A stretch of 64,000 bases of DNA from Argopecten irradians. Taxonomy: Eukaryota; Mollusca; Bivalvia; Pectinida; Pectinidae. The position numbers and the translations under genes are program-made. Where the stretch lies: the NCBI RefSeq assembly GCF_041381155.1, contig NC_091134.1, positions 1,050,001 to 1,114,000 of the forward strand. The letters run 5' to 3'. The notes under the pieces are model-generated. The model worked only from the letters and a program-made list of their open reading frames with translations. It had not been told where the DNA came from and did no database searches. Below, piece by piece: positions 14,495 to 62,200 of this stretch. The first letter of the stretch is position 1; the number at the start of each line of letters is the position of its first letter.

Positions 14495-15112
14495 TTATAT
14501 TTCGGGATCGTTAGCAGTGTCTGTGTCACCAGTGTCCCTTTCTACGATAGGCAAGGCACTTTCCGGTTTCCATAAGAATTCTGGTCCATTTGTCCTTGTG
14601 TATGACAACTTTGAGATGCTTGTTCCTCTCGAGGCGACATCAGTTGGATTTTCTTTGGTGTTGATATAATGCCAGTCATCTTCTATGGCAGCTTCATGGA
14701 AAAGAGTTATGCAGTTAGCTACAAACGTTTGAAAGCGCAGATTCTTGTTGGCAATAAATTTCAAGACATATGTACTGTCTGTCCAAAAGAAGAATCGGTA
14801 TATGCTGTAGTTCAGCTGTTCTTTCAACATCCTGCACAACTTCACCAGAGAATACGCAGCTGTAAGTTCCATTCGGGGTATTGTCACTGCCTTTAGTGGA
14901 GCAACTTTCGCCTTCCCGAACAAGAACGAACATTGAATTCGTCCATTTCCCTCCAACAAGTCGTAGATAAAATACCATGCCATATCCAACGTCACTAGTA
15001 TCTACAAATCCGTGAAGCTGACAAGAGGCTAAGTTACCGAATTCCTTTCTCTTGTAGCACCGATCGATTTTAACATACTCAAGTTCAGGTAGCGGAGTTA
15101 GCCAATTAGTAC
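14495..15112 (-). mobile_element. BEL/Pao-type retroelement fossil (pol fragment)
   Basis: The minus strand shows a fragment of pol around the RNase H region, with IPRMELTAA and FWTDSTYVL motifs and the IEDDWHYINTKENPTDVASRG segment that is characteristic of BEL/Pao elements. It is truncated on both sides and broken; no LTRs were seen next to it. It is treated as a degraded relic. Confidence 0.85.
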
Positions 15113-15920
15113 ATCAGGCCGCATTAACAAAATTCAGAGTAAAGGTAGTTCCACAGCATTGTTCACTTTCTAATCATTAGCTAAATCGTCATATGATTAT
15201 TGATATATACCCAACCATCTTCCTTGAAACGCCTCGAATATTTCTCTAATTAATCGATTACAATAATCAGACGGTATCTTAGGTATGTTTAGTCTTACGA
15301 TAAAAGAGTTCTCTCATCTAATCTGACTGAATTGATTCAAAACATTTGAAATAAATGAATTCTTTCTTTATCTAGATGAAACAAACAGATCGCGTGTCCT
15401 ATACGTGTTCTGTTGTTAATGTCAGCACAGTATCAAAACTGATATAATCTATATTATTTGTCAAACAGTGACAAGGTTTCTTTTATAGTGAAATTATATT
15501 GGAAGGTATGGCTCACAGCAAACCAACCTTGTGCTTCGAAAAATTGACACATGAAAATATGAGCTCAAGTACAACATGAAAGAGTTGTCTGACAAGGGAA
15601 AAAGAACATGGGGTGGCTTTCCTTTTAACGAAGCACCAGGATAATGATTTTATACACCTTAAGTTGGCTTGGTGTATCTGCTTTCACGTGATGATTCCTT
15701 TTGTGAGAAAGAAAAAGAAAAGAAAGAAATACTTTATATGAATTAAACGAAAGTCAAATGACCTTATCCAACGGGGAATTGATTTTGTACATATCATGCA
15801 ACCATGGTTTTCATTTTGCTTTCAATTCAGTATTTGATATCTTTTCTTTGGTTGCTTACCTGCAGTTTCCGCTCTCTAAATCTCTCACCAATACAATAAA
15901 CATCATAAAAGCATGATCTC
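15113..15920. other. intergenic, nothing recognised
   Basis: No exon or repeat could be supported between the retroelement fossil and the 50-bp satellite. Confidence 0.45.
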
Positions 15921-15924
15921 AAAT

Positions 15925-18900
15925 CAATGTCTCCTTTTAATTTCCACCCGATTATTCCTTACATGTTGTCAATGTCATATCTCCTTTTAATTTCCTCCCG
16001 ATTGTTCCTTACCTGTTGTCAATGTCATGTCTCCTTTTAATTTCCACCCGATTGTTCCTTACCTGTTGTCAATGTCATGTCTCCTTTTAATTTCCTCTCG
16101 ATTGTTCCTTACCTGTTGTCAATGTCATGTCTCCTTTTAATTTCCATCCGATTGTTCCTTACCTGTTGTCAATGTCATGTCTCCTTTTAATTTCCACCCG
16201 ATTGTTCCTTACCTGTTGTCAATGTCATGTCTCCTTTTAATTTCCACCCGATTGTTCCTTACCTGTTGTCAATGTCATGTCTCCTTTTAATTTCCACCCG
16301 ATTGTTCCTTACCTGTTGTCAATGTCATGTCTCCTTTTAATTTCCACCCGATTGTTCCTTACCTGTTGTCAATGTCATGTCTCCTTTTAATTTCCATCCC
16401 GATTGTTCCTTACCTGTTGTCAATGTCATGTCTCCTTTTAATTTCCACCCGATTATTCCTTACCTGTTGTCAATGTCATGTCTCCTTTTAATTTCCACCC
16501 GATTATTCCTTACCTGTTGTCAATGTCATGTCTCCTTTTAATTTCCACCCGATTGTTCCTTACCTGTTGTCAATGTCATGTCTCCTTTTAATTTCCTACC
16601 GATTATTCCTTACCTGTTGTCAATGTCATGTCTCCTTTTAATTTCCACCCGATTATTCCTTACCTGTTGTCAATGTCATGTCTCCTTTTAATTTCCATCC
16701 GATTGTTCCTTACCTGTTGTCAATGTCATGTCTCCTTTTAATTTCCATCCGATTATTCCTTACCTGTTGTCAATGTCATGTCTCCTTTTAATTTCCACCC
16801 GATTATTCCTTACCTGTTGTCAATGTCATGTCTCCTTTTAATTTCCACCCGATTGTTCCTTACCTGTTGTCAATGTCATGTCTCCTTTTAATTTCCATCC
16901 GATTATTCCTTACCTGTTGTCAATGTCATGTCTCCTTTTAATTTCCACCCGATTGTTCCTTACCTGTTGTCAATGTCATGTCCTCCTTTTAATTTCCACC
17001 CGATTATTCCTTACTTGTTGTCAATGTCATGTCTCCTTTTAATTTCCTACCGATTGTTCCTTACCTGTTGTCAATGTCATGTCTCCTTTTAATTTCCACC
17101 CGATTATTCCTTACCTGTTGTCAATGTCATGTCTCCTTTTAATTTCCATCCGATTATTCCTTACCTGTTGTCAATGTCATGTCTCCTTTTAATTTCCCCC
17201 GATTATTCCTTACCTGTTGTCAATGTCATGTCTCCTTTTAATTTCCACCCGATTGTTCCTTACCTGTTGTCAATGTCATGTCTCCTTTTAATTTCCACCC
17301 GATTGTTCCTTACCTGTTGTCAATGTCATGTCTCCTTTTAATTTCCACCCGATTGTTCCTTACCTGTTGTCAATGTCATGTCTCCTTTTAATTTCCACCC
17401 GATTATTCCTTACCTGTTGTCAATGTCATGTCTCCTTTTAATTTCCACCCGATTGTTCCTTACCTGTTGTCAATGTCATGTCTCCTTTTAATTTCCACCC
17501 GATTGTTCCTTACCTGTTGTCAATGTCATGTCTCCTTTTAATTTCCACCCGATTGTTCCTTACCTGTTGTCATGTCATGTCTCCTTTTAATTTTTCATGT
17601 TGTCTCTTTAATTTCCACCGATTGTTCCTTACCTGTTGTCAATGTCATGTCTCCTTTTAATTTCCACCCGATTGTTCCTTACCTGTTGTCAATGTCATGT
17701 CTCCTTTTAATTTCCATCCGATTGTTCCTTACCTGTTGTCAATGTCATGTCTCCTTTTAATTTCCACCCGATTTATTCCTTACCTGTTGTCAATGTCATG
17801 TCTCCTTTTAATTTCCACCCGATTGTTCCTTACCTGTTGTCAATGTCATGTCTCCTTTTAATTTCCACCCGATTATTCCTTACCGTTGTCAATGTCATGT
17901 CAATGTCATGTCATTCCTTTTAATTTCCACCGATTATTCCCTTACCTGTTGTCAATGTCATGTCTCCTTTTAATTTCCACCCGATTGTTCCTTACCTGTT
18001 GTCAATGTCAAGTCTCCTTTTAATTTCCACCCGATTATTCCTTACCTGTTGTCAATGTCATGTCTCCTTTTAATTTCCACCCGATTGTTCCTTACCTGTT
18101 GTCAATGTCATGTCTCCTTTTAATTTCCACCCGATTATTCCTTACCTGTTGTCAATGTCATGTCTCCTTTTAATTTCCACCCGATTATTCCTTACCTGTT
18201 GTCAATGTCATGTCTCCTTTTAATTTCCATCCGATTGTTCCTTACCTGTTGTCAATGTCATGTCTCCTTTTAATTTCCATCCGATTATTCCTTACCTGTT
18301 GTCAATGTCATGTCTCCTTTTAATTTCCATCCGATTATTCCTTACCTGTTGTCAATGTCATGTCTCCTTTTAATTTCCACCCGATTGTTCCTTACCTGTT
18401 GTCAATGTCATGTCTCCTTTTAATTTCCACCCGATTGTTCCTTACCTGTTGTCAATGTCATGTCTCCTTTTAATTTCCACCCGATTGTTCCTTACCTGTT
18501 GTCAATGTCATGTCTCCTTTTAATTTCCACCCGATTGTTCCTTACCTGTTGTCAATGTCATGTCTCCTTTTAATTTCCACCCGATTGTTCCTTACCTGTT
18601 GTCAATGTCATGTCTCCTTTTAATTTCCACCCGATTATTCCTTACCTGTTGTCAATGTCATGTCTCCTTTTAATTTCCATCCGATTGTTCCTTACCTGTT
18701 GTCAATGTCATGTCTCCTTTTAATTTCCACCCGATTGTTCCTTACCTGTTGTCAATGTCATGTCTCCTTTTAATTTCCACCCGATTGTTCCTTACCTGTT
18801 GTCAATGTCATGTCTCCTTTTAATTTCCACCCGATTGTTCCTTACCTGTTGTCAATGTCATGTCTCCTTTTAATTTCCATCCGATTGTTCCTTACCTGTT

Positions 18901-20815
18901 GTCAATGTCATGTCTCCTTTTAATTTCCACCCGATTGTTCCTTACTGTTGTCAATGTCATGTCTCCTTTTAATTTCCACCCGATTGTTCCTTACCTGTTG
19001 TCAATGTCATGTCTCCTTTTAATTTCCACCCGATTGTTCCTTACCTGTTGTCAATGTCATGTCTCCTTTTAATTTCCACCCGATTATTCCTTACCTGTTG
19101 TCATTGTCATATCTCCTTTTAATTTCCATCCGATTGTTCCTTACCTGTTGTCAATGTCATGTCTCCTTTTAATTTCCATCCGATTGTTCCTTACCTGTTG
19201 TCAATGTCATGTCTCCTTTTAATTTCCACCCGATTATTCCTTACCTGTTGTCAATGTCATGTCTCCTTTTAATTTCCACCCGATTATTCCTTACCTGTTG
19301 TCAATGTCATGTCTCCTTTTAATTTCCACCCGATTGTTCCTTACCTGTTGTCAATGTCATGTCTCCTTTTAATTTCCACCCGATTGTTCCTTACCTGTTG
19401 TCAATGTCATGTCTCCTTTTAATTTCCACCCGATTGTTCCTTACCTGTTGTCAATGTCATGTCTCCTTTTAATTTCCACCCGATTATTCCTTACCTGTTG
19501 TCAATGTCATGTCTCCTTTTAATTTCCACCCGATTGTTCCTTACCTGTTGTCAATGTCATGTCTCCTTTTAATTTCCACCGATTGTTCCTTACCTGTTGT
19601 CAATGTCATGTCTCCTTTTAATTTCCACCCGATTATTCCTTACCTGTTGTCAATGTCATGTCTCCTTTTAATTTCCACCCGATTATTCCTTACCTGTTGT
19701 CAATGTCATGTCTCCTTTTAATTTCCACCCGATTATTCCTTACCTGTTGTCAATGTCATGTCTCCTTTTAATTTCCATCCGATTATTCCTTACCTGTTGT
19801 CAATGTCATGTCTCCTTTTAATTTCCATCCGATTGTTCCTTACCTGTTGTCAATGTCATGTCTCCTTTTAATTTCCATCCGATTGTTCCTTACCTGTTGT
19901 CAATGTCATGTCTCCTTTTAATTTCCATCCGATTGTTCCTTACCTGTTGTCAATGTCATGTCTCCTTTTAATTTCCACCCGATTGTTCCTTACCTGTTGT
20001 CAATGTCATGTCTCCTTTTAATTTCCACCCGATTTTCCTTACCTGTTGTCAATGTCATGTCTCCTTTTAATTTCCACCCGATTGTTCCTTACCTGTTGTC
20101 AATGTCAAGTCTCCTTTTAATTTCCACCTGATTATTCCTTACCTGTTGTCAATGTCATGTCTCCTTTTAATTTCCACCCGATTGTTCCTTACCTGTTGTC
20201 AATGTCATGTCTCCTTTTAATTTCCACCCGATTGTTCCTTACCTGTTGTCAATGTCATGTCTCCTTTTAATTTCCACCCGATTGTTCCTTAGCTGTTGTC
20301 AATGTCAAGTCTCCTTTTAATTTCCACCCGATTGTTCCTTACCTGTTGTCAATATCATGTCTCCTTTTAATTTCCACCCGATTGTTCCTTACCTGTTGTC
20401 AATGTCATGTCTCCTTTTAATTTCCACCCGATTGTTCCTTACCTGTTGTCAATATCATATCTCCTTTAAATTTCCTCATGATTTTACTTACCTGTTGTCA
20501 TTGTCATGTCTCCTTTTAATTTCCACCCGATTGTTCCTTACCTGTTGTCAATGTCATGTCTCCTTTTAATTTCCACCCGATTGTTCCTTACCTGTTGTCA
20601 ATGTCATGTCTCCTTTTAATTTCCACCCGATTGTTCCTTACCTGTTGTCAATGTCATGTCTCCTTTTAATTTCCTCCCGATTGCTCCTTACCTGTTGTCA
20701 ATGTCATGTCTCCTTTTAATTTCCACCCGATTGTTCCTTACCTGTTGTCAATATCATGTCTCCTTTTAATTTCCACCCGATTATTCCTTACCTGATGTCA
20801 ATGTCATGTCTCCAG
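15925..20815. repeat. 50-bp satellite array, about 98 copies
   Basis: The unit on the plus strand is tgtctccttttaatttccac followed by ccgattgttccttacctgtt and gtcaatgtca. Most variation sits at two places (CCACCC/CCATCC and ATTG/ATTA), with a few single-base indels near 17570-17620 and 17880-17940. Read on the minus strand, most units contain CAACAG|GTAAGG, a near-perfect 5' splice site. The array ends at 20792, where the donor of a candidate exon lies. Confidence 0.97.
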
Positions 20816-22683: not shown

Positions 22684-22997
22684 TTACAGCCATAACGATA
22701 ACCACACGTGTAAAACAAACAGCACAGGAAAATATATTTGTCGGTAAACTGAAATATTTGAAACCCCATGTGTCCCTTCGCAGCCGGAAGTGGGTGCCCC
22801 GGGTGGTGCTTGTTTACAGTTGTCTTTGTTGATACCAACGCATGAAGCGAACGCCATCACGTGCGGAATATAACTTTGTTCATGGGTTCCTGTAAGGAGG
22901 TGCGCCATTGGTCCATTAGCATAAACCGGAACATCCTCTCCACTGTGTGTCTCCGAGTACAAGGGCACAGCGCTTCCCTGCTGAAAGTCGAAGTCGG
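22684..22997 (-). CDS. alkaline phosphatase exon 9 (GPI tail)
   Basis: It encodes [20 protein letters not shown] with the last zinc His, [20 protein letters not shown], a Cys-containing spacer and the hydrophobic GPI signal. Stop TAA at 22684-22686. Confidence 0.95.
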
Positions 22998-25900
22998 CTG
23001 GAATATAAAGTAAACGATAGTTGATATAGATACATCACCTGGATAAGATATCTTCTGTAATCCAAACACAATATTTCACTGGGAATTAACTAGTCCCGCA
23101 AAAAAATCATCAGACACATTGTATTATGTCACTCTGTACCTACATGTATCTACGTCAGTGAGGTTTTCCCGCCCGACAGGTCCGTTACCATAAACCAGTG
23201 TAGTGTAAGGCATACCGTCATCACTGACGTCATCATCTACTAGCCCTAGAAAATAAATAAACGTCGACTATAGCACTATCTCACTGGAGCACATAGTCAA
23301 TGACACTAACAGGATACTCCACCCGGACTATCATACCGACAACTGGCGAGCGATACGTCTTACTCTCCCGAGAGTACAAAGCAGGAGTCGATTAGAACAT
23401 ATATAATAGTTTGTCACCACTACAGAGTAAATAAAGTTGGATGATTTATCACGATTAAACATAAGCTACTGTAAATTTCTTGGTGTTTTTGATCATAGGT
23501 GTTTTATGGTGTCCTTTTTATGTTCACACATGTACGTTACCAAGGATACTGTTGCCACGACTGGGGTATCCGGCCATCATGAACACGTGCGAGTGGTCAG
23601 CCGTGACAACTAACAATGTCTCCTCCTCATTGGTCAGATTCAGCGCCATCTGTATTGCTTCCTCGAATGCAAACGTCTCGTGCAGCGCACGTGCACCGTA
23701 TGTCCCATGATGGGCATGATCTATTCTCCCACCTGGTAAAATCATCAAATTAACAACAGGATACATAGCACTTTAGACACGAAAGTAAGAATAAATTGTT
23801 ATTGCTTTTGGATTTGACACAATGTCCCAAATACTGACAATAACAAGGCACTGATCCTATTGGGCAAATGAGTTTCTATTTAAGAACGCGGAGTATACAA
23901 AATATATAACAATTTATTATTAAGTTCAAAGGTTAATTTTAATTCCTTTCGATCACAATACACACTATTACAATCAGAAATAAGTAAGCTATCAATACCA
24001 GAGATGATAGTACCAATACAGAAATCAACAATGATTACACTGGTAAAACAACTAAAGGATTTACCATTCACAAAGATCAGCATCATTTTATGTTTCAAGG
24101 GAAGTGTTAACTACTACCAACTAGACTGATTCGCATATCATTAACAAGAAAGCGTAGCTTCAGATGTATTACCAAATTAACTAACCTTCAACCAATAAGC
24201 TTCACGTGTATCGCCAAATTAACTCACCTTCAACCAATAAGCTTCACATGTATTGCCAAATTAACTCACCTTCAACCAATAAGCTTCACATGTATTGCCA
24301 AATTAACTTACCTTCAACCAATAAGCTTCACATGTATTGCCAAATTAACCTACCTTCAACCAATAAGCTTCACACTTCACATGTATTGCCAAATTAACCT
24401 ACCTTTTAACCAATAAGCTTCACATGTATTGCCAAATTAACCTACCTTTAACCAATAAGCTTCACATGTATTGCCAAATTAACCTACCTTCAACAATAAG
24501 CTTCACATGTATTGCCAAATTAACCTACCTTCAAACAATAACTTCACATGTATTGCCAAATTAACCTCCTTTTAACCAAAAGCTTCACATGTATTGCCAA
24601 ATTAACCTACCTTCAAACAATAAGCTTCACATGTATTGCCAAATTAACCTACCATCAATCAATAAGCTTTATATGTATTGCCAAATATACCAACCTTCAA
24701 CCAATAAGAAGAACCCCATTGGATTGTTGTCTAGGATTTGTATAGCCTTTCTTGTCATTTCCGCTAGAGAAGGTTCACCTTCCGGTCCTGTATTTCGCCT
24801 ATGTTCATAATCCATATGAGAAGACTCAAACAAACCTGGAAAAAAGATCAAACCCGAATAAGACAGACGTTGGCAGTCGAAGGAAGTACAATGCATTATA
24901 TTCGAACAAAACTCTGTGGATTTTGATGCATTCAATCAGATACAAATTCGATATTTACAATATTACAGTGTGGGACTCCATTATATATTTTGATTTGTAC
25001 TATTGAAGTCTTTAGTTCGTTAGAACAGAAGACTAAGCCATCGAATCCGATCAGCAAATCCATTATTGCATTATAAGAACATCTTTACTGCTAAAACAAC
25101 CAGGAAAGTGAACATGGCTATGATGGCTGTCTTGATCTTGAGAATCGCTCCACTAACCCAGAAGGTGGTCCGTCGTCTCCGGATCGACAGCACCAAACTG
25201 CGCATTGTTCCATACGTAACTGTGACTTCTGTTTCTGTCCGTCTTATCCTTGATCCATTCCTGAAACACGTACAGGTCAATCCAAAAACGTCAAATACAA
25301 CCGTGCTAACGTTCTAAAAATAGAGTTATGGCAAGTGAGAAATTAATATGTGTGACACATTCCATTAACCCGACAGACCAACGTCGAACAGTTGTAAGGC
25401 AGTTTTCTCTATGTCTAACTACTTAAATGGTCACAATTGTTTTGTGTATAATGCACTTGTGTGTAGATTGCACTTCCATTTTAATCTTTTCATCGAAAAT
25501 TCACTCCATAAAAGGTCCATACCCAATCAACGCTTTTCATACTTACGTCGACGAGATCGATGTCTGCTCTCTGATACCGACTGGTGGAGTTCAATTCAGG
25601 ATCTGTCTTGTTTTCAGACAGGAAGTATCGTCTCCCACCTCCCAGGATTACCTGTCGTGAAAAAACACGTGTTTAGGTTTTAGAAGGAATTGCTTATATA
25701 GGTTTTACATGAACCGAAAAGTCAGATACGGACAATTATTTTCGCAGCCTGCCATAATATACAATTCGATACCAATGCCAGAAAACAAGACCAAAGAAAT
25801 ACTATTTATAATTAAAAAGCGCTTTTTGAGGGAAACGACACATTTGAATAAGAAACACATCTGCTATGTGGATGATTTGGGTTTAATGTTTAGAATGTAC

Positions 25901-26874
25901 AGAGGTTACATACAAAGTAATATTTTGAGGAAAGCACGTGAGATGACTTTTTATTTCAAGATTCCAGCTTACATTGATTTCACTGTTATTCATCACTAGT
26001 TGATAGGCTATATCCCTACATCCACCCTCGATTTCCTCAGCATCAAGTTCTGTGTCTCCTTCCCATCCTCTAGCGGCCGCATGCGCATAAGCTGCTGCCG
26101 GTGTCGCGTGTGTCACGCGCGTGGTGGTCACAATCCCCGTAGATTTACCTGCAGAAATGTTGAGGATATATCACACATTTATGAAACTGATTTTAAAAGA
26201 GCACTGTTTTTACTGGCAAATAACATTTACCTTCTTGTTTGCTCCAGTCCAAAATTGACGTCACTTCCGTTCCATGCTGTGTCGTACAATTTCCATATGC
26301 CACTCTATCATCTAATCCCAGCGTCCCAGCCTTGGCTTTGACCCCGCACAAAAAGGCTGTCCCAGTGCCTGCAGAGTCAGGAACTTGTTGGTCGGTGTTG
26401 TACGTCTAAAATTGAAATAATTGGCCCAGTTACTGACAAACAACTATTATCTTAAATAAGGGATGAACAACAAGTATGTGCCTGTAATGGCGTAAAAAAA
26501 TAAGTGATTGTTTATCTATAGTTGTACAAATCATTCATGTAGGAAATAATTAATGTCTTATTTCTCTAAACGGTAGATACCAGAAGTAATACCTTGATAA
26601 AACCTGTGTATGCGAACTTTTCATACGCCATTATGTTTTCCTCTCCTGTCTCTCCCCGGAGCTGTCCTCTGTAGATCCGGGCTGCGGTAACCGTGGATAT
26701 TCCAAGTCCGTCTCCAAGGAACAGAATGACATTCTTAGCAACGTTAGTGTTGTGCTTCTGTGTCATCATCCTCTTTAGCGTATCCTGCGCATGCGTATTC
26801 CAATATGCTGCATCTTTGAAAAGCCAAGATGCGAACAATGTTAAAGCAATTACAGGATAAACAGTGCAGGGCAT
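22684..26874 (-). CDS. alkaline phosphatase, GPI-anchored (whole gene, 9 exons)
   Basis: A zinc/magnesium phosphomonoesterase of the animal tissue-nonspecific type. Exons in order: 26874-26593, 26405-26231, 26148-25973, 25651-25547, 25260-25158, 24835-24695, 23732-23541, 23245-23144, 22997-22684. All junctions are GT-AG and all phases join, giving 1590 nt and 529 aa, close to the roughly 524 aa of vertebrate forms. Visible landmarks: signal peptide, first metal Asp in LFLGDGLG, nucleophile Ser in [29 protein letters not shown], Glu/Asp/His in [19 protein letters not shown] and SETHSGEDV. The hydrophobic C-terminus ([16 protein letters not shown]) is a GPI-attachment signal, so the enzyme should sit on the outer cell surface. 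Likely intact and active. In molluscs such enzymes are linked to mineralisation and gut phosphate handling; that role is inference here. Confidence 0.96.
23144..23245 (-). CDS. alkaline phosphatase exon 8
   Basis: It encodes [33 protein letters not shown], matching the family FTAILYGNGPG...RENVS segment. Acceptor ttatttattttctag; donor gtaggt; phase 1-1. Confidence 0.92.
23541..23732 (-). CDS. alkaline phosphatase exon 7
   Basis: It encodes [47 protein letters not shown] and ends ILG. The Asp and His zinc ligands are present. The end at 23541 was chosen because only that donor (gtaacg) gives phase 1 for exon 8. Confidence 0.94.
24130..24710 (-). repeat. 42-bp tandem array copied from the exon 6 5' splice junction
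   Basis: About 13 units counting the genuine junction. On the minus strand each unit reads cttattggttgaag|gt.., which is the last bases of alkaline phosphatase exon 6 plus the start of the intron, then taatttggcaatacatgtga. Donor variants across copies include gtgagt (two), gtaagt (one), gtaggt (several) and gttagt; the genuine site is gttggt. Copies at the far end are the most uniform; those near the exon carry more changes. Confidence 0.93.
24695..24835 (-). CDS. alkaline phosphatase exon 6
   Basis: It encodes [29 protein letters not shown] and [11 protein letters not shown] with the metal-binding Glu. Its last 13 or so bases and its donor (GAAG|gttggt) form the first unit of the 42-bp array that follows in the intron. 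The donor itself is a poorer match to consensus than many array copies. Confidence 0.95.
25158..25260 (-). CDS. alkaline phosphatase exon 5
   Basis: It encodes [10 protein letters not shown], then [20 protein letters not shown], matching the family FIWNRTEL...DYLLG region. Acceptor cgtgtttcag, donor gttagt, phase 1 exit. Confidence 0.92.
25547..25651 (-). CDS. alkaline phosphatase exon 4
   Basis: Exactly 35 codons: [10 protein letters not shown], a KTDPE segment and RADIDLVD, matching the family VIMGGGRKYM ... DLVD block. Donor gtaagt, phase 0. Confidence 0.93.
25973..26148 (-). CDS. alkaline phosphatase exon 3
   Basis: It encodes [20 protein letters not shown] and [11 protein letters not shown], holding the Mg-site His/Thr and the phosphate-contacting Arg, then [11 protein letters not shown]. 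Donor gtaagc, phase 0. Confidence 0.95.
26231..26405 (-). CDS. alkaline phosphatase exon 2 (catalytic serine)
   Basis: It encodes [20 protein letters not shown] with the nucleophile Ser in the D-S-A-G-T motif, then [11 protein letters not shown]. Enters phase 0 and leaves phase 1 with donor gtaaat. Confidence 0.95.
26593..26874 (-). CDS. alkaline phosphatase exon 1
   Basis: It encodes the signal peptide ([19 protein letters not shown]) and [19 protein letters not shown] with the first metal-binding Asp. Start chosen as the ATG opening the hydrophobic leader. Donor AAG|gtatta, phase 0. Confidence 0.95.
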
Positions 26875-54789: not shown

Positions 54790-56044
54790 TATCTCACATA
54801 CTTAAAGGAAAAATTATGAAAATACAGTTATATAGAACCATTTCCATAGCGCCGCCATCATAGGAACGTCGCAATGCGTCAAAATCAATGAAGTCGTCGA
54901 CAATAGACACCGCATGTAATGATGACGTCACGTCATTGTCTAGTGTGTGTGAGCTATCTTTTCCTTACCCTGGTAAAAGACAGAGTTATCTTTCCCTAGC
55001 AAATGCGGGATAACCCTGTCAAGTATGGGCGAAAATCAAGTTCACATTACCACTATGGAATTTGACAATTACCGTATATTTGGAAAACTGTAACCTGATT
55101 TCTTTCCATATTCAACAGCTACATTTGTTCCAAGAAGTGCACCGCGTGTACCATTCCCATGCCCCGCGGTGTACCATTCCCATGCCCCATCCTTATTTTA
55201 TCAATAAGAAAGCATGTATGATAGGAAACAAATAATACATTTGATTATAACCTTAAGCAGACACATGTGGATTTTTTCCCCATCTAGCTCTTTTCATGCT
55301 ATTAAATTTAAGTTCAGAGATTTGGCATATATTTCAAGTAATCATACACTTACATATTAAAATCTTCAATGAATATTATTATTACTAATCATACCAAAAG
55401 TTGACATTTATATTCTTTATCATTTATTTCAAATTCAAAATTTCTCAAGAATCCAGTAGTTTAAAATAACTTGACAGAATCTCTTTGTTTATTTGTAAAA
55501 CATTTGGGCTTTTATATAATCATTTATAAAAATTAAGATAAAAATTGAAATTGATTTTTCACATTTGGTCTACATAAAGGAGATATTTCCATTGCAAAGT
55601 TAAGTCTTTTGTTATTAAAATACAACATTCAAGAGACTTTGTCCAGTCACACAAACATGGATGTTCAACTCTTTATCAGTTAGACTACCTCAGTCATAAT
55701 GTAAAAGGATACTTTGGTGGTACACAGGTTAACAGCTTTAACTGTGACTTATAATGTGGTTCATTTACCTGTAGTCAGTTTTCGTGGTTGGCTTGCAGCA
55801 GTTAATTAATCTGTAATTATTCATTTTCTTGGTCATTATTGTGTAATATTAAAATGTTCACAAAACTGTAGTTTGTATTTTTACTGATTGACTTAAAATG
55901 CAATACATCAATTATTTCCAATTACTATTTTTTATGAATGGTTCAGGGAACACATAGTTAAATGTTACACAGTAATTGTTTTGTCAGTTGGCTAGTAAAC
56001 TGTAAATAGAATTTTTGGTGATTGGTCTGTGATACGTTGTAACT
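54790..56044. other. downstream flank of mib2
   Basis: Probably includes the mib2 3' UTR. Several AATAAA-like words occur on the minus strand; none could be singled out. Confidence 0.35.
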
Positions 56045-56280
56045 TTAGCTGTAGATAGTAATTTTTTTGGTGATTGGCTTGCGACACATGTGACAGATTT
56101 TGAGTGCCTCTCCACACTTGTTACAGACACTGTGTCCACACAGGAATACCATATCTCGTCGCCGCTCCATACAAATCGTACACAGAATGTTTTCCTCCAT
56201 TTCCTGAAGACGGCGCTGCAGTACATTTGAATCTGAGTCAGTTGGCCGTGAATTACTATGTATTTGTAGTTTTGATCCAT
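56045..56280 (-). CDS. mib2: mib2 last exon, terminal RING finger
   Basis: It starts after cattacag, encodes DGSKLQIHSNSRPTDSD, a short helix (VLQRRLQEMEE) and the RING ENILCTICMERRRDMVFLCG, HSVCNKCGEALKICHMCRKP, ending KKITIYS and TAA at 56045-56047. The frame was chosen because it alone joins the previous exon in phase 1. Confidence 0.95.
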
Positions 56281-59200
56281 CTGTAATGAATGTTACATAG
56301 TATATTTATCTATAGTTACAGAGTAGGGAAGTATATTTATCTATAGTTACAAAGTAGGGAGGTATATTTATCTATAGTTACAAAGTAGGGAGGTATATTT
56401 ATCTATAGTTACAAAGTAGGGAAGTATATTTATCTATAGTTACAAAGTAGGGAAGTATATTTACTATAGTTACAAAGTAGGGAAGTATATTTATCTATAT
56501 TACAAAGTTATCAAAGTAGGGAAGTATATTTATCTATAGTTACAAAGTAGGGAAGTATATTTATCTATAGTTATCAAAGTAGGGAGTAATATCTATAGTT
56601 ACAAAGGTATATTTATCTATAGTTACAAAGTAGGGAGTATATTTATCTATAGTTACAAAGTAGGGAGGTATATTATCTATAGTTACAAAGTAGGGAGGTA
56701 TATTTATCTATAGTTACAAAGTAGGGAGGTATATTTATCTATAGTTACAAAGTAGGGAGGTATATTTATCTATAGTTACAAAGTAGGGAGGTATATTTAT
56801 CTATAGTTACAAAGTAGGGAGGTATATTTATCTATAGTTACAAAGTAGGGAGGTATATTTATCTATAGTTACAAAGTAGGGAGGTATATTTATCTATAGT
56901 TACAAAGTAGGGAGGTATATTTATCTATAGTTACAAAGTAGGGAGGTATATTTATCTATAGTTACAAAGTAGGGAAGTATATTTATCTATAGTTACAAAG
57001 TAGGGAAGTATATTTATCTATAGTTACAAAGTAGGGAGGTATATTTATCTATAGTTACAAAGTAGGGAGGTATATTTATCTATAGTTACAAAGTAGGGAA
57101 GTATATTTATCTATAGTTACAAAGTAGGGAAGTATATTTATCTATAGTTACAAAGTAGGGAAGTATATTTATCTATAGTTACAAAGTAGGGAGGTATATT
57201 TATCTATAGTTACAAAGTAGGGAAGTATATTTATCTATAGTTACAAAGTAGGGAAGTATATTAATCTATAGTTACAAAGTAGGGAGGTATATTTATCTAT
57301 AGTTACAAAGTAGGGAGGTATATTTATCTATAGTTACAAAGTAGGAGGTATATTTATTATATAGTTACAAAGTAGGGAAGTATATTTATCTATAGTTACA
57401 AAGTAGGGAGTATATTTATCTATAGTTACAAAGTAGGGAGGTATATTTATCTATAGTTACAAAGTAGGGAGTATATTTATCTATAGTTACAAAGTAGGGA
57501 GGTATATTTATCTATAGTTACAAGAGGGAGTATATTATCTATAGTTACAAAGTAGGGAATATATTTATCTATAGTTACAAAGTACAAAGGGAAGTTATTA
57601 TCTATAGTTACAAAGTAGGGAAGTATATTTATCTATAGTTACAAAGTAGGGAAGTATATTTATCTATAGTTACAAAGTAGGGAAGTATATTTATCTATAG
57701 TTCAAAGTAGGGAGGGAGTAGTAGTATATTTATCTATAGTTACAAAGTAGGGAGGTATATTTATCTATAGTTACAAAGTAGGGAAGTATATTTATCTATA
57801 GTTACAAAGTAGGGAAGTATATTTATCTATAGTTACAAAGTAGGGAGGTATATTTATCTATAGTTACAAAGTAGGGAGGTATATTTATCTATAGTTACAA
57901 AGTAGGGAAGTATATTTATCTATAGTTACAAAGTAGGGAAGTATATTTATCTATAGTTACAAAGTAGGGAAGTATATTTATCTATAGTTACAAAGTAGGG
58001 AAGTATATTTATCTATAGTTACAAAGTAGGGAAGTTATTATCATATTACAAGTAGGAAGTATTTTAATTTATACAATGTAGGGAAGTATATTAATCTTAG
58101 TTTCAGTAGTAGGGAAGTCTTTTTTATTGGGATCAACATACAGATGATGAATGGTGTAAATCATCCTCAATATCCCAGGGATTACTATCACTGTTGAAAC
58201 TTAATGCTTTGATCCAAAACATAATCAGTACCGGTTTTATTTACAATTTTATTCTTTATATATTACCGCAGTTCCCTCTGGAATTATGTAACTTTAGACA
58301 ATATCTTTTAACATCAATAACTAGAGTTACTCCTGAAAACCATGAATTTTTTTAAACATCTTCAAATATTTTATATCCAAGAACATCACAGGAAAATTAC
58401 CTTTAGAAACTTTGGCCTCAATGTTGACTTTGCATGTGAGACATCGTTTTGGTTTTACGCTGCATTCCTGACATGTGACCACATGCTCACACGGCAGAAA
58501 CTTGATAACAGCAATTTGCTCGGAGCAAACCACACATTCTATATCACCAGGCTGGGTCATCTCGGATCTTGTACCAGAGGCACTACAAATAATAATGTTC
58601 AGAAAATCACTGATAATTTGCTAGGTTTATAAATGCAATATGTATTATCGCTAACAAACATTTTTGATGTTTTAGAGGCAATTTTTATTAAAATATCAAA
58701 ATCTGCATTTGTGACATCTACAAAAATCCAAGTTTTCATTTATTTTATTCCCATTACACATCTAGCCTACCCCAGGGTTTTGTTTATAATAATAACCTGC
58801 ATATCAGACCAAACTACAACCATTGCCAGAGTAGGCGACTTATACCCCCGCTGCACAAATTAAGCAATAACTCCATTAAAAGGGAACCATTTGTGACGTT
58901 AACTTTTTTCATAGCTAGTCCTTTAGACTAGTAAACCCCCAAATTTTACTAGTCTGGCTATTTTAATATTAGTCCAAAATAACTATACAGCCGTTTTGCT
59001 TCAGCATTTTGGTCATCATCAGTTTACAATTTTTGACCCAAAGTACAGTCTGGATGCGTTTGTGAATAATGCATCTGGATTGAAATAATTGCAAAAAGAA
59101 TGCACTCAAAATGTGTTGAAAATGCAATTGACCACTTGAGATATAGTATTCTATAATGATTTTAATTGGGTGGGAAGCCACTAGTCCAATCCAATCCCAA

Positions 59201-62200
59201 TCGGGGTCCAATCGGACTAGTTCATTACAATTAGTACTAGTCCGACCGCTAAAATTACTCGTCATGGGCATCGGACTAATGCTGAAAGTTGCAGACTTGG
59301 GGACATTACAGAACCCTATATAGTTTACTTAACTCCCTTTCTGTCATAACTCCCTTTTATGTCAGAGTTCTGTGTACTAAATTTTATTAAAATCTGTCAA
59401 GCAGTTTAGGAGGAGTTTGCCAGACAAGGTTGTGTCTACCGACAGACAAGCAGTCCAATTCTAGTATTAAAACACACACACCACCAACTTAATTTCTTTC
59501 CAGAGGGTATAATTAAAGATGCTCCACCGCTGACAAATGGTAATTTTTCACTATCAAAAACAGGAGCATTACCACCATTGAAAAGTTTGAGCTTCTAATT
59601 TTACTTCAAGTTAAAAACATAGAATAGAAGTAATTGCATCCCGAAAAAAATCCATGCCACTATATCCTATATGGAATGAAGTACTGATTGCACATGCACC
59701 AAAGGCGAAATAAATTATTTTATATAATTTTTTGTGTTAATTAGACATATATACATGATTAAACACCAATTATTGTTCAAATGATGAATATCATTTATGC
59801 TCTGTCCGCAGTGGAGCATCTTTAAGCATTTTAGATATTTTAAATGAAAATAGTACTTTGAAGTAGCAAATTGCTTGATGAGCTCTTCGGTGCGTGGGTC
59901 ACTGATAACATCCATTGGCGTTTTGCCCTGGTGATTTTTCTGAGTGAGTTTAGCTCCCTGTTGAGCGAGGTAACAAGCAATGGCAGGTCCCATTTGTTCA
60001 TCACCCTCGGTCATACCAAGCTGGACACGGATCTAGTAAGAATGAGAAATAAACATCTGATAATAGACTACGTAGACTGGGATATCTACAGCAGATTGCA
60101 GGCACAATGTCCAAGATTATTAGAATTTTGATATAGACTATCATAGACTTAGGTTAATGAAAAAGAGGAAAGACTTTCACAAAGACTTCTTTGGAATAGG
60201 ATAGAGTATAGACAGTGATTTTCAAAAATAAAAAAATGTGACTTTGACATAAAACAAGAAATTAAACTTTCAACTTATTAAATTATTGCTATCAGCTTTA
60301 AAAAGTGTATATCATTTACCATTTTGTAACAAACTCTTTTGTGGATCAAATTTTTTGCAACCATAAAATTGTACATGTACCAAGTACCATAAAATCCCAG
60401 AAATATAAATGCAAACTTTCAAATTCTTAAGAAAATTGCTGTACTCACAGCATCTAGCATGGGACTATTTTCCTTCTCTGTGGCGACAGTTTGTCTCATG
60501 AGAGCGAGATGGAGGCAGGTATCGCCATCTTCATCCATCACATTGACATCTGCCCCACAGACTACGAGCAGCTCAATGATAGAGGTATGGCCCTGGGACA
60601 CGGCCAGTAGTAATGGAGTCTGCTGTCGGTTGTTACGATTCTCTATATCGGCATGACCCTGTAAAACATTTGATGTTCAGTTACAAACACATGAAATAAT
60701 ATAATGATGTTGTATAAAATTGAACAGAAAACACAATTCACTATAGACCAGAAAATTCATCAATAGTACTCCAAACCATGTACTCAGATGGATGTTTTAA
60801 AGAACATCCTTATGAACCATAAACTTTATGTGTTTGCATTAACTCCAAAACAAGTTGTATAAAACCCTTTTGATGTCTGAATTAAAGCATGTGAGGGGTC
60901 TTAGCGTGGGAGGAACCCAATCATTGACTCCCAAATTGTTCACGCCTGTGCCAACTACCAAGAACCAAACTCCCAATAGTTTGGGTTTGGTTTTATTATT
61001 CTAGCATCCTGTTAAGAGCCAGGGTCATGTACAGATGTGCCAGGTTTGTTGGTGGAGGAAAGCCAGAGTACTGGAGAAAGACCACCGACTAGTGGTCAGT
61101 ACCTGACAACTGCCAAACATGGGATTCTAACCGCATCCCAGAGGTGGAGGGCTTGTGGTAATATGTCAGGACATCTTAGCCACTCGGCCACCGCATCTCA
61201 GAGGTGGAGGGCCTGTGGTAATATGTCGAGACATCTTAACCACTCGGCCACCGCATCCCAGAGGTGGAGGGCCTGTGGTAATATGTCGAGACATCTTAAC
61301 CACTCGGCCACCGCATCCCAGAGGTGGAGGGCCTGTGGTAATATGTCGAGACATCTTAACCACTCGGCCACCGCATGCCAGAGGTGGAGGGCTTGTGGTA
61401 ATATGTCGAGACATCTTAACCACTCAGCCACCGCATCCCAGAGGTGGAGGGCCTGTGGTAATATGTCGAGACATCTTAACCACTCGGCCACTGCGTCCCA
61501 GAGGTGGAGGGCCTGTGTTGATATGTCCAGACATCTTAACCACTCGGCCACCACATCCCAGAGGTGGAGGGCCTGTGGTGATATATCGAGACATCTTAAC
61601 CACTCGGCCACCACGGCCCAGAGGAGGAGGGCTTGTGGTGATATGTCAGGACATCTTAACCACTTGGCCACCACGGCCCAGAGGAGGAGGGCTTGTGGTG
61701 ATATGTCAGGACATCTTAACCACTTGGCTGCCCGGGCCAAGGGGTGGAGGGCTTGTGGTGATATGTCCAGACATGTTAACCACTTGGCCACCAGGGCCCA
61801 GAGGTGGAGGGCCTGTGGTAATATGTCGAGACATCTTGACCACTTGGCCGCCCGGGCCAAGGGGTGGAGGGCTTGTGGTGATATGTCCAGACATCTTAAC
61901 CACTTGGCCACCAGGGCCCAGAGGTGGAGGGCCTGTGGTAATATGTCGAGACATCTTGACCACTCGGCCACCGCGGCCCAGAGGTGGAGGGCCTGTGGGT
62001 ATATGTCGAGACATCTTAACCACTCGGCCACAGTGACCCCTCAAATAGACAGGTGAAAGACGATTCGTATAAAAACTATACAAGGCACTTTCTTATCCTG
62101 TTCTTCAGCTTCCCTTTAAATGGCACTTGGGAGATTTCTGCTGTATCGTTTGTAAGTTGACATTTCCCCCCTGTGTATTACCTGTGTAATCAGTGTGTTT

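Follow-up and report, generated by a model that had tools for sequence, protein, structure and literature searches.

A 42-bp minisatellite spanning the exon 6 donor of a predicted alkaline phosphatase gene in Argopecten irradians places higher-scoring decoy donors downstream

Minisatellites that take in a splice donor are known from two human genes, and the published accounts are drawn on here as excerpts. Among the 37-bp repeats in intron 7 of F7, splicing normally uses the 5' splice site lying furthest upstream and no other, and a mutation in that site activates a cryptic site downstream (PMC6627357); the excerpt of a further article, PMC3778950, does not describe the repeat. In ABCA7, a 25-bp variable number tandem repeat of intron 18 directly flanks exon 18, its first two bases being the GT of the true donor. 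Use of the donor in the next unit leads to a premature stop, an isoform with a single retained unit is found, and alleles range from ~12 to 427 units, longer arrays being associated with lower expression and more skipping of exon 19, not with single-unit retention (PMC5954066). A third system, PAH, has binding of the U1 small nuclear ribonucleoprotein (snRNP) downstream of the natural donor, which is lost in the +17 and +20 variants and enhances exon 11 (PMC5933811). The arrangement considered here lies in a 64,000-nucleotide stretch of the bivalve Argopecten irradians (G000:C1:1050001-1114000; genome of 845.8 Mb, 1508 contigs), termed the window. A 42-bp minisatellite of 13 units in a predicted alkaline phosphatase gene has the true donor of intron 6 within its first unit, and downstream units hold further donors in register. 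We give a probability of about 75% to an account in which the array would have been seeded at the exon 6/intron 6 junction, the first donor is still spliced and the decoys are mostly silent, the near ones being used slightly.

Tandem Repeats Finder reports a period of 42, 13.0 copies, 90% matches and a score of 838 for the array. The unit, starting at the exon's TTATTGGTTGAAG, comprises the last 13-14 bases of exon 6, the donor and ~28 intron bases; repeat call and unit read-out both confirm the original prediction, which had described the repeat as exon end, donor and intron start. The array overlaps exon 6 by 14 bp, and the spliced, homology-placed model agrees with the exon end predicted at 24695, placing intron position +1 at 24694. 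Of about 12 extra donors that had been claimed, the 12 extra copies are present, but a GT in register is found in 11 of them, copy 3 having none. The in-register donors read gtaggt (7), gtgagt (2), gtaagt (1) and gttagt (1), the first three kinds in the numbers foreseen (several, two and one). The 13 exon-end bases are without mismatch in units 8-12, and units 1-7 each have at least one change in the exon-like part. A chance origin of the array sequence is excluded. The 553-bp array has a single match in the genome, namely itself, in a search that may skip very common words. Within the window the 14-mer TTATTGGTTGAAGG is found at the exon end and in units 8-12 (six occurrences), and three places elsewhere in the genome carry it, compared with six occurrences of the reversed pattern and a composition expectation of ~11; at two of the three outside places, which were examined, the repeat does not continue (6 and 9 of 28 bases matching).

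The surrounding gene encodes an alkaline phosphatase of animal type, as judged from its coding sequence and introns. It is intact, its exons joining into a single spliced frame, and the product matches PF00245 with 488.3 bits (curated cut-off 24.4) over positions 1-422 of 423. The nearest solved structure is that of tissue-nonspecific alkaline phosphatase (TNAP, 7yiv; 540 bits), with which the catalytic Ser context and the metal-site Asp/His motifs, including ETHSGED, align. Besides nine more gene models with exons 6 and 7, the genome contains a fragment (J) and one isolated match to the first exon. Fragment J (L052) is a partial copy resembling phosphatase gene I, ~40 kb away, and has stops in its reading. 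No retrocopy displaying natural splicing, that is, one stretch running from profile position 230 or lower (exon 6) to 300 or higher (exon 7), is among the 64 PF00245 matches listed.

Intron 6 lies at the same residue and in phase 1 after FL[LM]VE in 9/9 paralogues, and in 10/10 models when the studied gene is included. Because intron and phase are common to all nine paralogues and the genome holds no second copy of the array, it is strongly supported that the exon came first and would have seeded the repeat, with tandem expansion to 13 units within the intron. Such an exon-first origin had been predicted, and an ancestor of the array lacking exon sequence, named at the time as the refuting case, did not emerge from the genome search. 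Without the 12 extra copies intron 6 would measure ~450 bp; seven of the nine paralogues have 244-573 bp and the other two 2675 and 4879 bp. The last unit passes into intron sequence starting CTACG and the unit itself starts CTTAT, and the first duplication may have occurred via this 2-base CT homology. The opposite order, with the repeat present first and the exon end converging on it, is extremely improbable, as is an assembly error. LLVE/LMVE is common to the paralogues in differing codons and LLVEG is also found in TNAP 7yiv, which argues against convergence, and the lack of a second copy in the genome speaks against a repeat that was there before. A simple assembly duplication is at odds with units that differ from each other. 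Nothing was found in favour of either alternative, and the array length given is that of the assembly.

Donor strength was assessed with a position weight matrix (PWM) built from 77 homology-placed donors of ten gene models, real sites being scored leave-one-out, and U1 pairing was computed in a fixed register. Nine introns were dropped from the matrix (the array intron, all four of fragment J, and those after residue 18 of E, 20 and 153 of G and 252 of I), and counts based on 78 introns drop the same rows except the array-bearing intron. The true donor is ordinary for its family and not crippled, its U1 pairing being equal to or stronger than that of 65% of real family donors. As it is not weak by this standard, no rescue or special protection is demanded, and by homology the upstream donor would be required for the full-length enzyme. 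From the start of exon 6 to the acceptor of the intron, 13 GT sites score at least as high as the true donor, which is counted among them; 11 are the decoys and the remaining one, at 24064, lies outside the array on its far side.

Several observations weigh against continued use of the first donor. All 11 decoys exceed it on the family PWM (8.69-12.53, 74th-100th percentile, vs 6.72), in agreement with the earlier claim that the copies fit the consensus better than gttggt; eight reach the 92nd percentile and one surpasses every one of the 77 real donors, so a choice made by strength would favour the decoys. Their U1 pairing spans -6.2 to -10.2 kcal/mol vs -6.0 kcal/mol. Local folding does not hide them either, 10 of the 12 extra copies being more often unpaired than the true donor (probability of being unpaired over 9 nt 0.0021-0.099 for the copies, 0.0068 for the true donor, regional median 0.016). 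Protective RNA structure was thus rejected, as the folding included no special occlusion of decoys. In 90% of BA10 samples, moreover, the abnormal ABCA7 isoforms are jointly more abundant than the canonical isoform (PMC5954066, excerpt), and such arrays are therefore not always harmless.

Table 1. Features of the alkaline phosphatase gene and of the array, in window positions (a slash marks the exon/intron boundary).
Feature	Position	Strand	Basis or score
Alkaline phosphatase gene (predicted), nine coding exons, 529-aa model	22684..26874	-	Spliced reading and homology-placed introns; PF00245; 7yiv
Exon 6 acceptor tttgatcttttttccag, likely anchor for exon definition	24836..24855	-	Top score among 78 acceptors (13.81)
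Exon 6, 141 nt, ends ...FFLLVE-G, phase 1	24695..24835	-	Spliced reading
Minisatellite, 42-bp period, 13 units; first unit spans exon 6/intron 6 junction	24156..24708	-	Tandem Repeats Finder, unit read-out
True donor of intron 6, AAG/gttggt	24689..24694	-	PWM 6.72, 40th percentile of 77; U1 -6.0 kcal/mol
Decoy 1, ATG/gtaggt, exon +42 nt	24647..24652	-	PWM 8.69
Decoy 2, AAG/gtaggt, exon +84 nt	24605..24610	-	PWM 10.29
Copy 3, donor place without GT, reads AAAAGGAGGT	24564..24569	-	Unit read-out
Decoys 4-8, each AAG/gtaggt, +1 at 24528, 24487, 24445, 24402, 24353	24348..24528	-	PWM 10.29 each
Decoy 9, AAG/gtaagt, top PWM score	24306..24311	-	PWM 12.53; U1 -10.1 kcal/mol
Decoys 10 and 11, AAG/gtgagt, +1 at 24269, 24227	24222..24269	-	PWM 10.28, U1 -10.2 kcal/mol each
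Decoy 12, AAG/gttagt, last unit	24180..24185	-	PWM 8.95; U1 -6.2 kcal/mol
Exon 7, begins GTGGGAGAATAGATCATGCC (GGRIDHAHH)	23541..23732	-	Spliced reading and homology

The account we prefer would begin with a tandem duplication of the 42-bp stretch across the junction, which grew to 13 units while selection on the LLVEG motif retained the exon end and the true donor in the first unit. The first donor would still be joined to exon 7, presumably because the very strong acceptor upstream defines the exon and the donor closest to it downstream is taken first, as reported for human F7. The 11 decoys further down would be mostly silent, and a minor share of transcripts would probably arise via a near decoy (+42 or +84 nt) and, by analogy with ABCA7, be degraded on account of the shared stop. 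With decoys 9-12 the exon would reach 524-650 nt. The simplest account is likely exon definition combined with an upstream-first choice, favoured because the acceptor of exon 6 is the strongest of the 78. The acceptor thus favours the idea that exon definition may guard the genuine donor; the special protection it implied is not demanded by a donor of ordinary strength. In a bolder version, a coding gene would tolerate 11 donors superior to its own by family matrix and U1 pairing, with position relative to the strong acceptor prevailing over donor strength nearly throughout, or else array length would act as a heritable dial on enzyme level; this seems to us rather unlikely.

All 11 extended readings run from VEG into WYIWQYI and a stop, exactly as had been predicted, and this stop lies before the first decoy. 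Decoy use would truncate the enzyme before the GRIDHAHH of exon 7, in line with the expected loss of the zinc-site Asp/His, and the missing region includes ETHSGED, aligned with TNAP 7yiv. A stop codon upstream of exon junctions is expected to elicit nonsense-mediated decay; exon junctions 7/8 and 8/9 lie downstream of the shared stop, and decay of decoy-spliced mRNA is therefore expected. Decoy use should accordingly lower expression, which is an argument for a length-dependent rheostat, whereby the number of units would alter productive mRNA through decoy use and decay or through skipping of a neighbouring exon. The tie between array length, expression and exon 19 skipping in ABCA7, where one isoform retains a single unit, points in the same direction. 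We still consider a rheostat unlikely. In the same excerpt, single-unit retention is independent of length, and the lower expression, according to the authors, does not stem from differing proportions of exon 18 and unit-retention transcripts (PMC5954066). The phosphatase array is one array in one assembly, no length variation is known for it, and nothing in the locus points to regulation rather than load.

The single stop common to the 11 extensions could also suit a regulated poison extension, with the near decoys (+42 and +84) shutting the gene off in some tissue or state. This is very improbable: reading on into the intron by any extension would meet this stop, the first one in frame, while the decoy closest to the exon scores lowest of the 11 (8.69) and copy 3 has no GT. 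Damage to 2/3 proximal vs 1/9 distal copies, by our own labelling, is not a significant difference (Fisher P 0.13), and selective purging of near decoys is not claimed. A similarly small chance is given to a tandem U1 platform, on which the decoys would draw U1 snRNP, either assisting the true donor or protecting the intron against premature polyadenylation, and would not compete with that donor. The pairing energies of the 11 sites and the enhancement of PAH exon 11 by downstream U1 snRNP (PMC5933811, excerpt) are compatible with such a role, but the nearest decoy is 42 nt off, a greater distance than in PAH, a true donor of this strength requires no help, and conservation is not demonstrable.

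The array resides in a minisatellite-rich setting. Arrays cover 22,669 of 176,810 bases in the window and paralogue loci, and 5,101 of 82,648 intron bases in the ten phosphatase genes. Among 24 arrays in these 176.8 kb, a unit donor of at least 8.69 on either strand is found in three (2/23 besides the 42-bp array). Array rows found no more than 60 bp from an intron edge number seven (78 introns, 156 edges), and exon entry among them is seen for the 42-bp array, by 14 bp, and for a 13-bp doublet at an acceptor of G (score 45), by 8 bp, which is noise level. Copies of the last 12 exon bases plus GT, scanned within 1 kb of each donor with two mismatches allowed, number nine at exon 6, and a single copy occurs among the other 77 donors. 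The notion that arrays of the family concentrate around splice sites was rejected, with 3/156 edges against 2.93 expected from circular shifts (P 0.62; period at least 20, score at least 100, distance limits of 30 bp for donors and 40 bp for acceptors, 42-bp array included). As the setting is rich in minisatellites and edge arrays are as frequent as random placement would have them, chance seeding across the junction is enough to explain the origin.

Other arrays near splice sites were seen in the paralogues. The intron after residue 280 of paralogue G (L047) has a 38-bp array of four units starting at +5 of the donor, and the intron after residue 391 of paralogue F (L045) a 21-bp array of 31 units ending 27 bp before the acceptor. 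Intron 6 of paralogue D (L042-L043), the one of 4879 bp, contains several other arrays, of periods 39-182, which the genome search does not relate to the 42-bp unit. Elsewhere in the window, a 31-bp array of ~59 units (56299-58118, minus strand) separates two RING-finger exons, its end being 18 bp short of the acceptor that follows (exon start 56280). Of its 57 internal AGs, 50 are no lower than the 5th percentile of real acceptors, but the true acceptor outscores them all; it is a possible acceptor-side counterpart. At 55984-60676, an ankyrin exon and two C3HC4 RING exons share the minus strand, perhaps as one gene, which we take to resemble a mind-bomb type ubiquitin ligase. A 50-bp array of ~97 units (15927-20813, minus strand) lies downstream of the phosphatase gene, 1.9 kb from its stop codon, and its minus-strand consensus unit includes a strong donor-like CAGGTAAGG; no exon seeding was seen at its edges, and no wider search was made. 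The minus strand of a GC-rich 60-bp array of 15 copies (61130-62031) carries GGCCGAGTGGTTAAG, which to us resembles the D-arm region of a transfer RNA (tRNA); ARAGORN tRNA genes and Rfam families at gathering score both number zero in the whole window. A Pao retrotransposon peptidase fragment is present at 14495-15113 on the minus strand (PF05380, matched for the 14495-15001 frame).

Our literature searches on intron gain by tandem duplication, donor-site minisatellites, decoy or tandem donors and minisatellites in mollusc introns found nothing relevant, and we do not claim that arrays of this sort lack earlier reports outside humans. The arrangement is already known from human F7 and ABCA7, and the phosphatase array joins that kind; its presence in another genome suggests that an abundance of minisatellites may be enough for arrays of this type to arise. 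Going by the excerpted accounts, F7 is alike in having a minisatellite that includes the true donor and sets donor copies downstream of it, and differs in its unit (37 vs 42 bp), in the unrelated gene and in that donor use was measured there and is inferred here. ABCA7 likewise has an array that takes in the true donor, and the stop that follows from its next-unit donor is what is predicted for the phosphatase decoys. Its repeat starts at the GT, whereas the phosphatase array reaches 13-14 bases into the exon, and its alleles span ~12-427 units compared with one array of 13 units; should the latter vary between individuals, it would offer a ready genetic dial. PAH intron 11 shares a U1-binding sequence downstream of the natural donor, in this case a single element near the donor, shown to enhance splicing, and no array. 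What may set the phosphatase array apart from the human ones is that its decoys outscore the first donor. With every in-register copy outscoring the first donor, position and strength in donor choice become separable in one natural substrate.
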